NCBI RefSeq assembly: GCF_023028345.1
Contig: NZ_CP095487.1
Span: forward strand, 620,001-684,000
Length of the DNA: 64,000 nt
Reading direction: 5' to 3'
Source: Halorientalis marina
Lineage (GTDB): Archaea > Halobacteriota > Halobacteria > Halobacteriales > Haloarculaceae
The position numbers and the translations under genes are program-made. The notes beneath the pieces are model-generated. The model saw only the letters and a list, made by a program, of their open reading frames with translations. It made no database searches and was not told the DNA's origin. How positions within the stretch are numbered: the stretch's first letter is position 1; the number at the start of each line of letters is the position of its first letter. Shown piece by piece: positions 28,894 through 39,395 of the stretch.

Positions 28894-29423
28894 TCAGTCG
28901 ACCAGGCCGTAACCGCGACGGAAGAGGACGATGTCGAGCGCGACGACGGCGACGGTCAGCCCCGAGAGGACGAGCAGGGCGGCATTGGGTTCCACGTCGG
29001 AGTAGCCGAGGAAGCCGTAGCGGACGCCGTTGACCATGTAAACCATGGGATTGAGCAGCGAGAGCGTCCGGAACAGCGGCGGGAGGATGTCGAGCGAGTA
29101 GAAGACGCCGCCGAAAAAGACCAGCGGGCGGACGATGAACTGGTTCAGCACGGTCAGGTAGTCGAAGTCACGCGCCCAGAGGCCGCCGACGACGCCGAAG
29201 CCGGCAAACAGCAGGCTGACGACGAGCATGAACGCCACCAGGTAGAGCGGCTGGGCGATAGTCAGCGACTGGATGCTCGGGTCGAGCAGCGTGAAGCCGA
29301 GCCCGACCAGCCCGATGATGATGCCGACGAGGACGCCCCGGAGTGCCGAGGAGAGCACGTAGGCCAGCACCATCGAGGAGTAGGGAAGCGGCGAGGTCAG
29401 CACCTCGTGGATGTACTCGTTCC
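28894..29423 (-). pseudogene. 3' fragment of host ABC-2 permease gene, cut by an integrative element
   Basis: This frame encodes the C-terminal 176 residues of an ABC-2 type permease, from RNEYIHEVLTSPL to RRGYGLVD, with about four transmembrane helices. Its 5' part lies at 34359-34743, on the other side of the element. Joining the two across one copy of the 15-base repeat gives an in-frame 900-base gene (299 residues). The fragment has no native start, so it is probably silent while the element is integrated. Confidence 0.9.
29409..29423 (+). repeat. Attachment repeat, left end of the 4.95-kb element
   Basis: GGATGTACTCGTTCC occurs here and at 34359-34373. On the coding strand it encodes the permease segment WNEYI(H), where element and host sequence part. 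Confidence 0.92.
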
Positions 29424-29442
29424 TGCTTTGTTTTACACAAGT

Positions 29443-29454
29443 TTTATACATATA
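29443..29454 (+). promoter_or_regulatory. TATA box for the RHH-integrase operon
   Basis: TTTATACATATA lies about 26 bases before the GTG at 29476, the spacing of a leaderless archaeal transcript. Short inverted ACAC/GTGT and ATAC/GTAT segments overlap it and may bind the RHH protein. Confidence 0.6.
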
Positions 29455-29475
29455 GCCTGTATCTGTGTAATCACA

Positions 29476-29997
29476 GTGCCCGACCGAAAGCGCGTCAATC
29501 TGACCGTCGATCCGGAAACTAAGAACGACTGGAAACAAGCAGTAGAAGACTCAGACACCTTTCGTAGCCTCTCAGAACTAATCCGGCACGCAGTCAATAA
29601 CGAGATTTCAGACGACACACAGGCGACACAGACGGCAGTTGAAGCCGAAGAATCTGATACCGGCGCTGTCCAAGCCGAGGCTCTGAATCAGGTGCTTGAC
29701 GCTCTTGAGGGGCTTAACGACACCGTATCTGACCTTGACGACCGGCTTACAAACGTCGAAAAAGAAGTAACAGCCGAAGCCAAGGCGGACTTGAAGAATC
29801 GAGTGTTCGACTGCCTGCCCAAAGAGTCTGACGCGAACCAGCCGGACGGGAAGACAGCCGAGCAGATAGCCGAGGAGATTGATGAAGACCGAGATCGAGT
29901 TAGCGAGACTCTGTTAAAACTTCAGACACAAACTGCCACGGTCAATGAAGCGTTTACGCTTGATGAGGGGCAGATAGCGTGGTGTAGAGAGGAATAA
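29476..29997 (+). CDS. Ribbon-helix-helix protein with coiled coil and C-terminal HTH
   Basis: The product is 173 residues. Residues 1-45 form an RHH domain (RKRVNLTVDPETKNDWKQAV, then SLSELIRHAVNNEI). A coiled coil spans about residues 75-105, and a helix-turn-helix-like region (GKTAEQIAEEIDEDRDRV) ends the protein. GTG 29476 is chosen because the RHH strand starts right after it and a TATA box sits at the right distance. The integrase starts three bases after the stop. It probably regulates the operon and may act as an excision factor. Confidence 0.8.
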   Translation: MPDRKRVNLTVDPETKNDWKQAVEDSDTFRSLSELIRHAVNNEISDDTQATQTAVEAEESDTGAVQAEALNQVLDALEGLNDTVSDLDDRLTNVEKEVTAEAKADLKNRVFDCLPKESDANQPDGKTAEQIAEEIDEDRDRVSETLLKLQTQTATVNEAFTLDEGQIAWCREE

Positions 29998-30000
29998 CGT

Positions 30001-31035
30001 ATGGCTACTGATTCATATCTCATTGAAGAATGGGAAGCCGAAAGTGTCGATGATAGTGATAGCGACAAGCTTTCTCAATCAACCTTCGACCGATACAGTC
30101 GCCACGTCGAGAATTGGGCAGACTGGCTTTCGGATAACCGCGATAAGAGTCCTTGGGAAGCCGATAATCTCGACTTGAGGCGTTTCATCAAACAGTTAGA
30201 TCGAAACGATATGGCTCCTTCGACAATCAGCCAACGAGTTTCCGCTATCTCCAAATTCTATCAGGCAATGGGGACAATAGCCGAAGAAAAAGAAGAGGAA
30301 GGGGAAGAAGTACCTGATATACCGGATAATCCATACGATAATCTGAAAAAGAAGTACAAGAAGCGGCTACGTGGCGACACAAAAAAGAAGCAGGCAATGT
30401 CTGACAGCACGGACGACGAATTTGCCTATCTTGACCGCTCTGAAGTCAATAAGCTGAAAAAGAACGTCCCGAAGCCCAAGCGCCGGAACGAACTTATCAT
30501 AATGTTGCTTTTCAACTGCGGATTCCGACGCGAAGAACTGGCACAGTGTAAAATTCGGAATCCGAGGCATATTGATCGGGACGACGAATCAATCTACATT
30601 CCACCGATGAAATCGCCCGAGGGTAGGACTGTTGCCTATAATCCCGACTATCTCGGCTTTCATCTTGACCGCTGGCTGAATCACGAGCGCGACAATATGA
30701 CCTATGCCAACGAGTCTGATTATCTCTTTCCGACCAATGACAGTAAGCACATCTCCGGCGACTATATCAACCAGATGATTAAACAAGCGGCTGATAACGC
30801 AGGACTTCAAGAAATAACCGCTGAATACTCGGACGGGCGTAAACAACACAAAATCACTGCTCATACGCTTAGGCACTCTTTCGCTATGCAGTTGGTTGAG
30901 GAAGTTGACATTCGGAAACTGCAAAAACTGCTCGGTCACGAAGAACTTGAGACGACTCTCATCTACCTGCATATGTCGGAAGACGAAGCCAAAGAAGCGA
31001 GTCGTGGTTTTGATCCAAGCCCGGACGAAACGTAG
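30001..31035 (+). CDS. Tyrosine recombinase (integrase) of the element
   Basis: The product is 344 residues. Residues 20-100 are an N-terminal SAM-like core-binding domain. The catalytic residues are in order: Arg in FNCGFRREELAQ, HTLRHSF, LLGHEELETT and the nucleophile Tyr in LIYLHMS near residue 320. It should catalyse integration and excision at the 15-base repeats. The gene is AT-rich compared with host genes. A CCAGC/GCTGG hairpin just after the stop may terminate the transcript. Confidence 0.95.
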   Translation: MATDSYLIEEWEAESVDDSDSDKLSQSTFDRYSRHVENWADWLSDNRDKSPWEADNLDLRRFIKQLDRNDMAPSTISQRVSAISKFYQAMGTIAEEKEEEGEEVPDIPDNPYDNLKKKYKKRLRGDTKKKQAMSDSTDDEFAYLDRSEVNKLKKNVPKPKRRNELIIMLLFNCGFRREELAQCKIRNPRHIDRDDESIYIPPMKSPEGRTVAYNPDYLGFHLDRWLNHERDNMTYANESDYLFPTNDSKHISGDYINQMIKQAADNAGLQEITAEYSDGRKQHKITAHTLRHSFAMQLVEEVDIRKLQKLLGHEELETTLIYLHMSEDEAKEASRGFDPSPDET

Positions 31036-31477
31036 ACTGTCAGGCCAGCGGCCTAAGGCTGGCACAGGACTTCTACGCTACTCTAAGGGCGTTAGACGGC
31101 TATCATATTGAACAGACTGCTGTTCTAATACGTCTGACACACCGGAGCGCACAGAAATCGACAGAATCGGGAGATCTCTTAATCCCGTGCAGCTAAACAA
31201 TTGATGTTCAACCCCCACTGGTCACAGACTCAAATCGAAAAGTAGCGGCTTAACGGAAATCCCGAATCGCTAAGACTATCGTTAGCGCCGCGTTCAATGC
31301 CATCAAACTATGGTTTTCTCTAAGGCCTTGTGATTATCTACATACAGAACCTCTAACGGCAATGTAGGGGGTAGCCAAATACCGTTCCAGTAACTCAACG
31401 GAATAAATCGGGCCATATTTGACCATATTTTGGTGTATCCTACTGCCCTATTGCGATTGTAAATTTCAGAAATGCAG
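31036..31477. other. Non-coding stretch after the integrase gene
   Basis: No gene is supported. A CCAGC-GGCCTAAG-GCTGG hairpin lies at about 31045. A CCATATTTGACCATATTTTGG direct repeat lies near 31415. A 61-codon plus-strand frame at 31419 is antisense to a better small gene. Confidence 0.4.
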
Positions 31478-31600
31478 TCAGAAAGTCCCTAAGAGATCGA
31501 TATCAAGATACAGAACTATCCCTGCACCGATTAAGAAAATCAGCATTAGTGTCGCAACGATCCAATCAGGCAATCCTCCTTCTGCTTCCAATTCTGACAT
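31478..31600 (-). CDS. Micro membrane protein of 40 residues
   Basis: The reading is MSELEAEGGLPDWIVATLML, continuing into IFLIGAGIVLYLD and ending DLLGTF. It has one transmembrane helix, about residues 13-32. The ATG directly follows the TAA of the upstream PD-(D/E)XK-like gene, with no base between, and a GGAGG ribosome binding site lies 13 bases before it. Tight coupling and a clean helix support a real gene. Confidence 0.65.
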   Translation of the reverse strand: MSELEAEGGLPDWIVATLMLIFLIGAGIVLYLDIDLLGTF

Positions 31601-32125
31601 TTAAATCAGACCTCCTCCGCCAAAGGGTCCACTGTTGTCCCGATTGATTTCGGATGGGTCTTTTCCGAAGTTATCTTTTTTCTTATGTATAAAATGCACC
31701 TCGCTTTGACTCATTCCGACCGCCCCCATACCTTGATAATCATTTTGTAATTCTCTCCAACCACTCATATCTGAGATCCCACAAGCAACCGCAATCACCA
31801 CAGGGAATTCTTTTTTGTATTTTTCTATTTGACCTCTTAGTCGGTTTATGTCCCGGTTTTTGAGATCTTTTTTCATCTCGATCCCGATGCTATCATCTAC
31901 AACGAGATCTGCGTCAGATTTTCCACGTTCACGCCAGACCGGAACCTCTCCACCAGTGCCACCACCAAGACCGGGGTGCATTCCTGAATTGCTCTTTTCA
32001 TTCAGTTGAATGTCTAAATAACCCTCTAATTCCTGTTGAAATCCGTATTCATTTTCGTGTTTGTCTTCTGGTATCCACTCATCTATGAGTTGTACCACTT
32101 CATTACCAAGATTGTTCCCGAGCAT
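31601..32125 (-). CDS. PD-(D/E)XK nuclease-like protein
   Basis: The product is 174 residues. The core SDADLVVDDSIGIEMKKDL (about residues 70-88) fits the D...ExK catalytic motif, and NRLRGQIEKYKKEFPVVIAV follows as in restriction-endonuclease-like proteins. The tail is Gly-rich. There is no membrane segment. It is coupled to the 40-residue membrane protein. A nuclease role, perhaps in element maintenance or defence, is inferred only from the motif. Confidence 0.65.
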   Translation of the reverse strand: MLGNNLGNEVVQLIDEWIPEDKHENEYGFQQELEGYLDIQLNEKSNSGMHPGLGGGTGGEVPVWRERGKSDADLVVDDSIGIEMKKDLKNRDINRLRGQIEKYKKEFPVVIAVACGISDMSGWRELQNDYQGMGAVGMSQSEVHFIHKKKDNFGKDPSEINRDNSGPFGGGGLI

Positions 32126-32618
32126 ACAAAATACTGTTAATTACAGGCATATCAATCTATTCGACATTTTACCCAGCACATCTACCTCCACGGTCCTGCT
32201 TTCTCTCTTACTGCGACCGCGCTGGCTTCGCAGATAGATCGAGTGTCATACCGCTACCGCACCAAGCCCACCCACCTCCACGTTCCGGGCCACGCACCGC
32301 GCCGGGCTTTCGCCACGCACCGCGCCGCAACTGCGCTCGCCTCGGCAGTAGCGAAGCGGCAGGCGCGCTCAATTTCGTTCCGGCAGTAGATCGAACTCTG
32401 CTCCCGTGGCATTGACTCCCCCGACTGCACCGCGCTTGTTCCGCTTCGATGGTTACTGATAGTAATCGCTCCAAGGATTGGTGTTTTCTCGGTATCGCGT
32501 GGGCAGAATTTCGGGTTTAAGTGTCCGATTCGGCACCCCCTATAAAAAAGAATCAAAAATTATCGCCAGCCAAATCAACACTCAGGGCTTGTTCTACCAG
32601 TACTGCCGAACACCACGG

Positions 32619-32735
32619 GTGGGGGCATTATACAGCTACAACACAGCATTAGTTACAGTATTAGCTATTGTTGTTATAATTGCTGTATTCTGTATTGCTG
32701 TACTCTCCGCTCCCTCCGGTCGCAAGGAGAGTTAA
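32619..32735 (+). CDS. Possible micro membrane protein (38 residues)
   Basis: A GTG start, one long hydrophobic helix at about residues 10-29 and a short basic tail (SGRKES) are all that can be seen. The 3' end overlaps the first arm of a long inverted repeat. It could be chance in a T-rich stretch. Confidence 0.25.
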   Translation: MGALYSYNTALVTVLAIVVIIAVFCIAVLSAPSGRKES

Positions 32736-32791
32736 TTGTAGTGCTGTGCGGTAGGCTGTGCTGTTCTCGACCGACCGGAGGGAGGGAGAGT
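32702..32791 (+). repeat. Long inverted repeat with alternative pairing
   Basis: ACTCTCCGCTCCCTCCGGTC (from 32702) pairs with CGACCGGAGGGAGGGAGAGT at 32772-32791 over about 20 bases with one bulge. The first seven bases, ACTCTCC, can instead pair with GGAGAGT at 32726-32732. The two structures exclude each other. Confidence 0.7.
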
Positions 32792-32890
32792 AGTCAGCCG
32801 CCCCCCCGCCAGCCTGCCGCGCACAGATCGAGTCGGCGTTGTGCTACAGTCTCCAGCTCGTCGTACAGTCGGACGGCGTTGTAGGGACTC

Positions 32891-33322
32891 TCACGTCTCT
32901 ACTTTCTTGAATTGGACATTACACACACCACAGTAATTAACTCGCTTTGAATTTTTCACACCACATTGTGGACAAGTGATAGAAGCGAGTCCAATGTCAT
33001 TTGGACCGATTTCTACTACCTCTGTTTCATTCTCTTTTTCTGGTTGTACTTCTATCTCACACCCACAATTTTGACAAAAATTCGGATTGCCCACATTTGT
33101 TGCTCCACATTCATTGCACTCTATTTTTGAGTGGGGAGATTCGGAACTGGTAGAAATTGTATATATAAGAATACCAATTATACCGAGAATAAGAGTTACT
33201 ACAAACCAAAAGGAAGCAGATCTCCCTTTTTTACTGGCATCATTCGCTACCCACAAGGCGAGAAATAGCCAAACCAACCCAGCAAATAGAAATATCGTGG
33301 ATAGGCCAGACATTATGTTCAT
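32891..33322 (-). CDS. Zinc-ribbon membrane protein
   Basis: The product is 143 residues. Two transmembrane helices lie near residues 8-27 and 35-56. Two zinc ribbons follow: CNEC...CQNC near residues 70-89 and CPQC...CGVC near residues 117-134. The arrangement suggests a membrane-bound protein with a cytoplasmic zinc domain. The codon composition is AT-rich like the rest of the element. Function unknown. M at 33313 is an alternative start. Confidence 0.75.
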   Translation of the reverse strand: MNIMSGLSTIFLFAGLVWLFLALWVANDASKKGRSASFWFVVTLILGIIGILIYTISTSSESPHSKIECNECGATNVGNPNFCQNCGCEIEVQPEKENETEVVEIGPNDIGLASITCPQCGVKNSKRVNYCGVCNVQFKKVET

Positions 33323-33544
33323 AACATAACGCTCGATTTATGACACAAAAATCTTAATACTGCGAATGTGGAATGGCGTGGATTGGTGACTAAAATCCCG
33401 CTATTTCGCTATTTTTTGTGCGCTGAGTTGCGTAATGTATGACCACCCTACCCGACCATCGTTGTCACGACCGCGCTCGCCCCCTCAGTCGCCGTGGATA
33501 CAGGCCCATAGATTACGGTACTCCACACCCGCGCTGAAGATGTG

Positions 33545-34318
33545 CTACTCTACTAGTCCATACCCACGCTTGAACAGCAGGAAGTTCACGAACATCACAA
33601 CAACAGCGGCTACGGACAACACAATCAATGAGACGTTTGGATTAATTTCGGTTACTCCAATCATCCCAAACCGAACGCCGTTAACCATATACACCATCGG
33701 ATTCAGCAGAGACACTTGTCGCCACAGCGGGGGCAGTATCTCAAGCGAGTAGAATACCGCGCCGAAGAAAACCAGCGGTCGGAGAATAAACTGGTTCATC
33801 ACGGTCAGATAATCGAAATCATCGGCCCAAAGCCCGCCGATCACGCCGAACCCGCTGAATAAGACTCCAATCACAAGTAGGAACGCAACCAGATAAAACG
33901 GATTTGACACTGGAATAGAGGTAAATATCAATCCAACACCGACAATCAATGAAGCAGTAATGAACCCCCGGAGTGTGCTGGAAATAGTGTATGCCAGCAC
34001 CATATTCTGATAAGACATTGGAGAAGTAGTTACCTCATTGATATACTCGTTCCATCGGCCGTGGAAGATCGAGAAGGAAGCGTTCTCAAAGGCGTCTGAG
34101 ATTGAGCCAAGGACTACCAAGCCCGGTAGAACGAACTGAAGATAACTCACACCTGCAATTTCTCCAATCCGACTGCCAAGTATTACACCGAACACAGAGA
34201 AGTATAGAGAATTGGTGATTATCGGGGGTAGGAACGTATTGTATGGCCGTCTGACGTACCTCAGTATTTCACGCTTGACGAGTGATTTCAGTTGTATGAA
34301 CTGTCTGTTGGTGCTCAT
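33545..34318 (-). CDS. ABC-2 type permease carried by the element (replacement copy)
   Basis: The product is 257 residues with six transmembrane helices, complete from the cytoplasmic REILRYVRRPYNTFLPP start to FKRGYGLVE. It aligns along its whole length with the interrupted host permease (same FENASFSIFHGRWNEYI, GLWADDFDYLTVMNQFI, LNPMVYMVNGVRFG). It lacks only the host's 40-residue N-terminal extension. Its ATG overlaps the TGA of the truncated host ORF (bases 34315-34318), so it lies in the host operon behind the ATPase. It probably pairs with that ATPase to restore export. Confidence 0.92.
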   Translation of the reverse strand: MSTNRQFIQLKSLVKREILRYVRRPYNTFLPPIITNSLYFSVFGVILGSRIGEIAGVSYLQFVLPGLVVLGSISDAFENASFSIFHGRWNEYINEVTTSPMSYQNMVLAYTISSTLRGFITASLIVGVGLIFTSIPVSNPFYLVAFLLVIGVLFSGFGVIGGLWADDFDYLTVMNQFILRPLVFFGAVFYSLEILPPLWRQVSLLNPMVYMVNGVRFGMIGVTEINPNVSLIVLSVAAVVVMFVNFLLFKRGYGLVE

Positions 34319-34743
34319 TGGTGCCTCAATTTGAATAAAATTTGAGTGCTTTGTCCTAGGATGTACTCGTTCCAGCGGCCGTGGAAGATCGAGAAGGAGG
34401 CGTTCTCGAAGGCGTTGGAGATGGTGCCCAGGACGATGAGGCCGGGGACGATGAAGACGATATAGGAGAAGCCGGCGATCTCGTCGATGCGGCCACCGAG
34501 GATGACGCCGAAGACGGCGAAGTAGAGGACGTTCGTGATCGCCGGCGGGAGGAAGGTGTTGCGCGGCCGGCGGACGAACCGCAACACTTCACGGCGACAG
34601 AGCGTCCGGAAGCCCGCCGGGAACAGCCGGTCGAGGACGCCCGACTCCGTGGGGGTCTCCGCACCACTGACGGTCTCGCCCGCGGCGGTACCGCCGTCGG
34701 GACGCCGCTCGCTGGTGTCGTCTGGCCCGTGCTCGTCGCTCAT
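34315..34743 (-). pseudogene. 5' fragment of host ABC-2 permease gene, ending in element sequence
   Basis: The frame encodes 142 residues. The first 127 or so are the native N-terminus and first two transmembrane helices of the permease up to FHGRWNEYI. The last residues (LGQSTQILFKLRHQ) come from the element after the attachment repeat. The start overlaps the ATPase stop by four bases, and its own stop overlaps the replacement permease start. It may be translated only to couple the replacement gene. Confidence 0.9.
34359..34373 (+). repeat. Attachment repeat, right end of the 4.95-kb element
   Basis: Exact copy of GGATGTACTCGTTCC at 29409. Beyond it the host permease 5' part continues (AGCGGCCGTGGAAGATC on the plus strand). 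Confidence 0.92.
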
Positions 34744-35672
34744 GCACTCACCTCGCTTTCCTTGCGAGTCACGTCGACGAACACCTCTTCGAGGGAGGCG
34801 CGTTCGATGTCGAGTTCGGCCACCTCGTAGCCTCGCTCGTCGAGTTCGCGGACGAGGTCGGGGACGAGCGCGCTCCCGCGGGCGGCGGTCACGACCACCT
34901 GCGAGCCGGACAGTTGCACGTCGTGGACGCCCGACAGCGACAGGTCCGGCGCGGTCGTCGGCGGCTCGCGCAGGTCGATGGTGATGCGGTCGGTTCCGCG
35001 GTCCATCAGTTCGCCGGGACTGGCGACCTCGACTTTCCGGCCCTCGTCCATGATGGCGACGCGGTCACAGAGCCGTTCGGCCTCCTCGATGTAGTGGGTG
35101 GTGAGCAGGATCGTCGTCCCCTCGTCGTTCATGCGGTTGATGATCGTCCAGAGGTCTCGCCGGAGCTGCACGTCGACGCCGGCGGTCGGTTCGTCGAGGA
35201 TCAGGAGGTCGGGGTCGGAGACGAGCGCGCGAGCCAGCATGAACCGGCGTTTCATTCCGCCGGAGAGCCAGTCGAAGCGGGTGTCTGCTTTCTCCGCGAG
35301 CCCGACGGTATCGAGCGCCTCCTGTGCCCGCCGGCTGGCCTCTCCCGGCGGGATGCCGTGGTAGCCGGCCTTGTGTTCGAGCACTTCGTGGATCGGAAAA
35401 AAGCGGTCGACGTTGTACTCCTGTGGCGCGAGCCCGATGGCGTCCCGGGCCTGGCGGTAGTCGTCGTCGACGTCGTACCCGAAGACTTCGGCCTCGCCGG
35501 CGGTGCGCTCCGCCAGGCCGACGAGGATGTTGATGAACGTCGTCTTGCCCGCGCCGTTCGGACCGAGCAGGCCGAAAAACTCCCCGGCCTCGACTTCGAG
35601 ATCCAGCCCGTCGAGCGCGCGCACGTCCGCGTAGTCCTTCACGAGGTCCGACGCGCGGATGGACAGCGACAT
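34740..35672 (-). CDS. ABC transporter ATP-binding protein
   Basis: The product is 310 residues. Walker A is GPNGAGKTTFIN near residue 40, the signature is LSGGMKRR, and Walker B is LLILDEPTAGVD, with the switch His in TTHY. The C-terminal 80 residues resemble the extension of drug/polysaccharide exporter ATPases (YadG/DrrA type). The start at 35672 matches the family; the upstream 23 residues are not conserved in type. The next gene on this strand starts inside its stop (ATGA), so ATPase and permease form one operon. Confidence 0.95.
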   Translation of the reverse strand: MSLSIRASDLVKDYADVRALDGLDLEVEAGEFFGLLGPNGAGKTTFINILVGLAERTAGEAEVFGYDVDDDYRQARDAIGLAPQEYNVDRFFPIHEVLEHKAGYHGIPPGEASRRAQEALDTVGLAEKADTRFDWLSGGMKRRFMLARALVSDPDLLILDEPTAGVDVQLRRDLWTIINRMNDEGTTILLTTHYIEEAERLCDRVAIMDEGRKVEVASPGELMDRGTDRITIDLREPPTTAPDLSLSGVHDVQLSGSQVVVTAARGSALVPDLVRELDERGYEVAELDIERASLEEVFVDVTRKESEVSA

Positions 35673-38903: not shown

Positions 38904-39395
38904 TCAGACGGTGAACTCGTAGAGATCGTCGCCGACGTGGTGAATGGATTCGACGACGCGGCCCTCGGAGCCGACCATGTCCGACCCCTCGGTGAGCGCG
39001 CGGCCGATCGCCAGCACCTTGCCGTGGTTCTCCTCGTCGATCACAACGAGGTCGCCCGGTTCGATGTCGGGGTCGGCCTCGACGATGCCGGGCCGCATCA
39101 CGTCGGCACCGTCGCTGACGAAGGAGATGGCGCCGCTGTCGACGGTGACGCGGTGTTTCGCCGGCGGGTACTCGTTGGCCCCGTCGACGGTCAGGAAGGG
39201 CGCCCGCTCGCCGTCGTCGTCGAGATAGCACACCGACGGCTCACCGTCCACGAGGACGAGGTCGAACTCGGTCCCCTCCAGTTCCACCAGTTCGTAGCTG
39301 TCGGCGTCCAGTTCGACGCCGAGACCGGCCGACAGCGCCGTCTCCAGCTCGTCGACCGCGTCCGCCCGCAGGTGATGTCGCGATGTGACCTCCAT
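38904..39395 (-). CDS. PUA domain RNA-binding protein
   Basis: The product is 163 residues. The C-terminal half is a PUA domain: VDSGAISFVSDGADVMRPGI, then IEPGDLVVIDEENHGKVLAIGRA. The N-terminal half resembles the pre-PUA region (RHHLRADAVDELETAL). PUA domains bind tRNA or rRNA, so a role in RNA modification or translation is likely. The start at 39395 excludes 44 residues that look non-coding. Confidence 0.85.
   Translation of the reverse strand: MEVTSRHHLRADAVDELETALSAGLGVELDADSYELVELEGTEFDLVLVDGEPSVCYLDDDGERAPFLTVDGANEYPPAKHRVTVDSGAISFVSDGADVMRPGIVEADPDIEPGDLVVIDEENHGKVLAIGRALTEGSDMVGSEGRVVESIHHVGDDLYEFTV

Follow-up and report, generated by a model that had tools for sequence, protein, structure and literature searches.

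Site-specific integration very probably acts as a natural form of allele replacement within an operon in a 64,000-nucleotide stretch of Halorientalis marina DNA (the window), where the gene for an ABC-2 exporter permease in the chromosome is split by an integrative element that brings a complete, diverged permease of its own. The preliminary description of this DNA had proposed that the element breaks the permease and brings a diverged replacement as an alternative allele, and this is upheld at the level of sequence by the target with its core repeats and end arms, by the recurrence of the layout in a second element, by a series of decaying scars, by purifying selection on the kept copies, and by the discordance between a largely vertically inherited ATPase and a changing permease allele. 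In the proposed mechanism, a tyrosine integrase would insert the element at a 15-base core lying on the conserved WNEYI codons of the permease, cutting the gene and setting the complete diverged copy at the far end of the element, in the same direction and directly behind the N-terminal fragment. With the frame of the fragment ending on the start of the replacement (ATGA), the ATPase, the short fragment and the replacement would be transcribed together, the replacement would be translated by termination-reinitiation in the manner of the native ATPase-permease pair, and the element would thereby swap one permease allele for another. Afterwards the integrase part would often be deleted and the fragments would decay, with the replacement remaining as the resident gene.

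The direct repeat GGATGTACTCGTTCC is present in exactly two copies on the forward strand of the window, with zero copies on the other strand, and bounds an AT-rich element of 4,950 bases (GC 47% vs 67% in the background; Table 1), with a 15-mer common to two 60-base ends expected by chance at about 2e-6. On the minus strand, positions 34743-34374 and 29423-28894 join to exactly 900 bases in frame, comprising 299 codons and a stop, and the sequences flanking the element align to adjacent native sequence in the congeneric genome G110 and overlap there by 16 bases, as is characteristic of an empty site. The permease is unbroken in six of the seven congeneric genomes, with one gene at the locus, and together with the empty site in G110 this indicates that the target was whole prior to insertion. 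The claim that the 15-base repeat splits a host ABC-2 permease thus stands, and the finding that the preliminary description had named as contrary to it, two permease genes preceding any insertion, is not seen in the congeners, which hold a single unbroken gene. The ATPase, whose NCBIfam drrA-like match lies below the cut-off, is the first gene of the native operon, and its stop codon shares the four bases ATGA (34740-34743) with the start of the permease.

The direct core repeat at each end, the empty site seen in relatives, and an intact tyrosine recombinase place the element in the class of site-specific integrative elements. Inward from the left core lie an arm, a ribbon-helix-helix (RHH)-like gene, the integrase gene, two small genes on the other strand, the permease gene, an inverted arm, and the right core. 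The paired end arms are identical at 13/17 positions as inverted repeats, a match equalled in 19 of 20,000 shuffles. The integrase retains the catalytic residues R176, H288-x-L-R291, GH 312-313, and Y322, all conserved across the relatives compared, and the RHH-like gene, whose product has zero Pfam matches, is kept beside the integrase in most relatives. The first of the two small genes also matches sce7726 (E 0.0013), far under the cut-off. No capsid, replication, or conjugation/transfer genes were recognised in the element with Pfam, PHROGs, and NCBIfam, so that it does not group with known viruses or plasmids, and a reading of the element as a defence system finds a single marginal match only. 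Elsewhere in the window (38991-39080), ARAGORN calls a 90-base tRNA-Gly within a coding-looking stretch, which may be a false call.

Table 1. Features of the element, its target gene and the neighbouring ATPase gene, in window positions
Feature	Position	Strand	Remarks
Permease C-terminal fragment (native gene)	28894..29423	-	part of 900-base joined ORF
Left core repeat (att) GGATGTACTCGTTCC	29409..29423		exact repeat
Left end arm ACACAAGTTTTATACAT	29435..29451	+	pairs with right arm
Ribbon-helix-helix-like protein, upstream partner of integrase	29476..29997	+	RHH reading from sequence only
Tyrosine integrase	30001..31035	+	Pfam Phage_integrase PF00589 3.3e-28
Small gene, possible nuclease-like protein (weak)	31601..32125	-	PHROG nuclease E 0.0086
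Small gene, membrane segments and zinc-ribbon motifs	32891..33322	-	Pfam DZR 4.6e-06, just under cut-off
AT-rich, full-length replacement permease (ABC-2, 257 aa)	33545..34318	-	Pfam PF01061 1.1e-26
Core-like site within replacement permease	34039..34053		2 mismatches to core
ATGA, N-fragment frame stop over replacement start	34315..34318	-	same overlap type as native ATPase-permease pair
Right end arm ACTCAAATTTTATTCAA, probable integrase arm site	34331..34347	-	inverted relative to left arm
Right core repeat (att) GGATGTACTCGTTCC	34359..34373		on conserved W-N-E-Y-I codons of permease
Permease N-terminal fragment (native gene)	34374..34743	-	part of 900-base joined ORF; frame enters element
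ATPase partner of target permease (DrrA/NodI-like ABC ATPase)	34740..35669	-	Pfam ABC_tran 9.9e-33

The complete permease within the element matches both halves of the broken gene, as previously claimed, with 65% identity to the joined host protein over 254 residues (E 6e-122), and is diverged and AT-richer (GC 47% vs 66% for the host gene; GC3 0.55 vs 0.92). Both are ABC2_membrane proteins by Pfam, with the replacement scoring 94 bits against PF01061, above the curated cut-off of 26.9, and 229 bits against NCBIfam NF011648 (YadH/PRK15066; cut-off 225), which identifies it as a YadH-type ABC-2 exporter permease. The frame of the N-terminal fragment extends into the element for 19 codons, to a stop at 34315-34317 on the start of the replacement. 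This stop/start overlap is exactly ATGA in the window and in genomes G137, G352, and G316, and spans 11 nt in G100. ATGA overlaps couple translation via termination-reinitiation in Haloferax volcanii (PMC6728339), and the same arrangement here suggests co-transcription of the ATPase, the fragment, and the replacement, with termination-reinitiation possible. The ATPase and the replacement are accordingly arranged as genes that would be co-expressed in the window strain, and the replacement is predicted to work with the resident ATPase.

A second complete element is found in G100, a genome of another family, in the order ATPase, N-terminal fragment, full permease, integrase, RHH-like gene, C-terminal fragment; complete elements that include a replacement were found twice, in the window and in G100. 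The full permease of G100 is 76% identical to the replacement in the window, and lies in a different clade from the broken gene beside it, next to that of G357 from another family (88%). By comparison, the G100 fragments are 91–93% identical to the native genes of its genus, with the flanks aligning to the congeneric genome G056 with a 15-base overlap. The search of haloarchaeal genomes proposed in the preliminary description thereby returned both of its objects, with the uninterrupted permease present in congeners and, in G100, an integrase beside a homologue of its target. In G100 the ATPase gene is immediately preceded by an ORF that looks TnpB-like by eye (L040:8969-10234).

Seven further genomes (G137, G352, G096, G291, G389, G401, and G316) hold scars. 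Behind the ATPase come the N-terminal fragment up to the core, the right arm of the element, and then a full permease, and the 11–12 kb around the locus yielded no integrase. In G096, G291, and G316 the C-terminal fragment directly follows the permease. A scan of ATPase-permease stretches for the arm (at least 12/17 matching positions), which left out the window, where the arm is nonetheless present, returned the seven scar genomes and G100 and none of the other loci scanned. G137 matches the unbroken G247 at 93.6% identity as far as the core and at 96% behind the gene; its N-terminal fragment shares 95.9% identity with the gene of G247, and that of G352 shares 89.9% with the gene of G186. As each scar fragment derives from the resident gene, the scars point to about four separate insertions, in G137, in G352, in the lineage of G096, G291, G389, and G401, and in G316. 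Four genomes with clade A2 permeases and decayed remnants in front of them (G057, G087, G395, and G151) are, less surely, older cases. Tandem duplication as the origin of the scars was rejected on the strength of the arm and the core. The permease pieces in G333 and G360 lie merely 4–6 bases apart with no insertion, and these genomes were rejected as broken targets and left out of the counts; in G333 (L129) the resident permease is apparently frameshifted at about residue 170.

Whilst the scar fragments carry frameshifts and deletions, the scar permeases have no internal stops and show dN/dS values (NG86) of 0.015–0.08 in all computable pairs; several dS values exceed 1 and are unreliable, with the pairs at dS 0.14–0.30 likewise giving 0.015–0.08. 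The kept permeases are, on these coding-sequence comparisons, under strong purifying selection while the fragments decay.

The decay series also bears on a reversible switch, in which the integrase would recombine the cores, possibly including the core-like site at 34039, and the cell would alternate between the native and the element permease. The intact cores of the window and the open frames of both fragments mean that the native gene would be rebuilt by excision, should it occur, and the integrase retains its catalytic residues. Against this, the left core of G100 (L040:15870-15900) carries one additional base (GGATTGTACTCG), which may be a sequencing error, and as it stands excision there would leave a frameshift, so that the rejoined target would remain out of frame. 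The scars indicate one-way loss, and the core-like site has 2 mismatches in the window and 0–4 in other copies, an inconsistent pattern; a switch is consequently unlikely. Self-immunity of the replacement through recoding of the core was considered separately and rejected, as the copies of the window and G100 carry 2 differences from the core, but a perfect core is found in several of the kept copies.

A search for the integrase across the class returned 27 of 392 genomes at E <= 1e-40. In four genomes with related integrases (G214, G060, G392, and G431) the same permease is broken at the same codons with no second permease, so the replacement is dispensable for use of the site. Furthermore, a permease homologue at E <= 1e-20 is absent from 117 of the 392 sampled genomes (about 30%). 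The earlier proposal that the element uses a needed gene as its attachment site is therefore not supported, as the target is not generally needed. The element of G060 encodes a 261-aa ORF (L043:11947-12732) with no NCBIfam match, which might be a replication-type protein. Scanning genome contigs with the integrase alignment turned up further named hosts (Haloarchaeobius sp. FL176, Halobellus rarus, and Halopenitus persicus) but zero new permease cases. No free forms were found in viral contigs queried by integrase and by permease; phages and plasmids returned distant integrases only (best 32%), and plasmids distant permeases only (all <60% identity).

Eight loci (L037, L039, L041, L044, L046, L048, L050, and L051) hold small haloarchaeal elements with an RHH-like gene and an integrase, inserted in other genes or gene ends, with a TspO-like gene the target at L050. 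These elements have core repeats of 12–16 bases, located 60–76 bases before the RHH-like gene, and lengths of 2.6–6.4 kb, with boundaries that are less certain owing to the short repeats. The possibility that the family generally carries homologues of its targets was discarded, with none found in these eight relatives (0/8), and the pairing of target and cargo is therefore specific. This is pertinent to the alternative that the permease is passenger cargo resembling the target by chance, the native gene being merely broken and the second copy having no replacing role. The four elements at the same site that lack a second permease are in keeping with such cargo, as is the function of the replacement being one predicted from its sequence. 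Passenger cargo is nevertheless distinctly improbable, given that, across elements and scars of several lineages, the position of the permease (one particular end, 60–70 bases from the core), its orientation and its stop/start overlap are shared, that it is under purifying selection after loss of the element while the fragments decay, and that related elements inserted in other targets have no target homologue.

The phylogenies are consistent with replacement of the permease beside a resident ATPase. In the permease tree the host gene of the window groups with its congeners (SH-aLRT 94), and the element copies of the window and G100 fall in clade A (22 rows, SH-aLRT 97) among resident permeases from four families. 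The ATPase tree agrees for the most part with genera and taxonomy, whereas the permease allele type does not, with at least 19 changes of allele type on the ATPase tree; both trees are quick, with open branches and some long rows, and as the sample was chosen to include both kinds, 19 is not a rate. Many clade A residents lie directly behind the ATPase with no scar, and may reflect homologous recombination or old alleles. Routes other than integration, such as homologous recombination or ancestral alleles, would thus also move the permease, and nothing here shows that the scarless residents arrived by element. Whilst these residents could be cited for a local tandem duplication or ordinary homologous recombination that gave rise to a second permease, with one copy decaying and the integrase coincidental, such an origin is scarcely credible for the cases described here, where arm sequence of the element comes after fragments that stop at the core, the cores are duplicated, and the full copy comes from another clade and is much AT-richer than its neighbours.

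Replacement by site-specific integration has partial counterparts in known systems. The dusA islands and prophages of bacteria likewise combine a tyrosine-type integrase and a protein-gene target with an island coding sequence that keeps the target working, but replace a short 5' end only, in contrast to the present element, where the target is cut inside and a whole independent gene is supplied as a second cistron of the operon (PMC4482086). In tRNA/tmRNA islands (Islander) the target is similarly split, island sequence compensates, and the displaced fragment marks the far end; however, the compensating sequence is an identical 3' piece, as opposed to a complete diverged paralogue at a site in the middle of a membrane-protein gene (PMC4383910). 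The integrated elements of thaumarchaea are archaeal too, using short att sites (13 bp in one example) in protein genes with the reading frame reconstituted, but their sites are 3'-distal and they supply a few codons and a stop (PMC6563490). The SNJ2-family haloarchaeal integrases resemble the present system in the tyrosine integrase with a SAM-like N-terminal domain, the short att (13 bp in SNJ2), and a small accessory gene in the operon, and differ in their tRNA gene target and their coiled-coil and MarR-like partners, the comparison being by description rather than with SNJ2 sequence (PMC8371274). Where a target-restoring island mends the host gene by fusion with a short end of its own, the replacement here is a separate full-length gene, which makes the element a variant rather than a standard member of that group. 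Reviews of archaeal integrases list protein-gene sites and no whole-gene replacement (PMC8371274), and among the open-access literature only cases of partial restoration were found for complete replacement of a target gene by an element, although an earlier description is possible.

It is possible rather than probable that such elements bring about standing, in-place gene displacement in Halobacteria, with a recombinase inserting entire alternative alleles of a single operon gene at the right position across families, and that most resident clade A/A2 permeases arrived by this means and were kept for changed exporter handling or a changed route of attack; a selective cause of some kind is presumed to lie behind the swap. 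It is well established that islands can repair a few codons of the gene they enter; a cut in the middle of a gene with resupply of the whole gene within the same operon would be a new variation on these. The element offers a concrete route by which a distant homologue can replace one gene of an operon while its neighbours stay, an otherwise puzzling pattern in gene trees. Additionally, since the stages range from the complete element down to a bare scar, every step can be dated and tested, and the group is genetically tractable.
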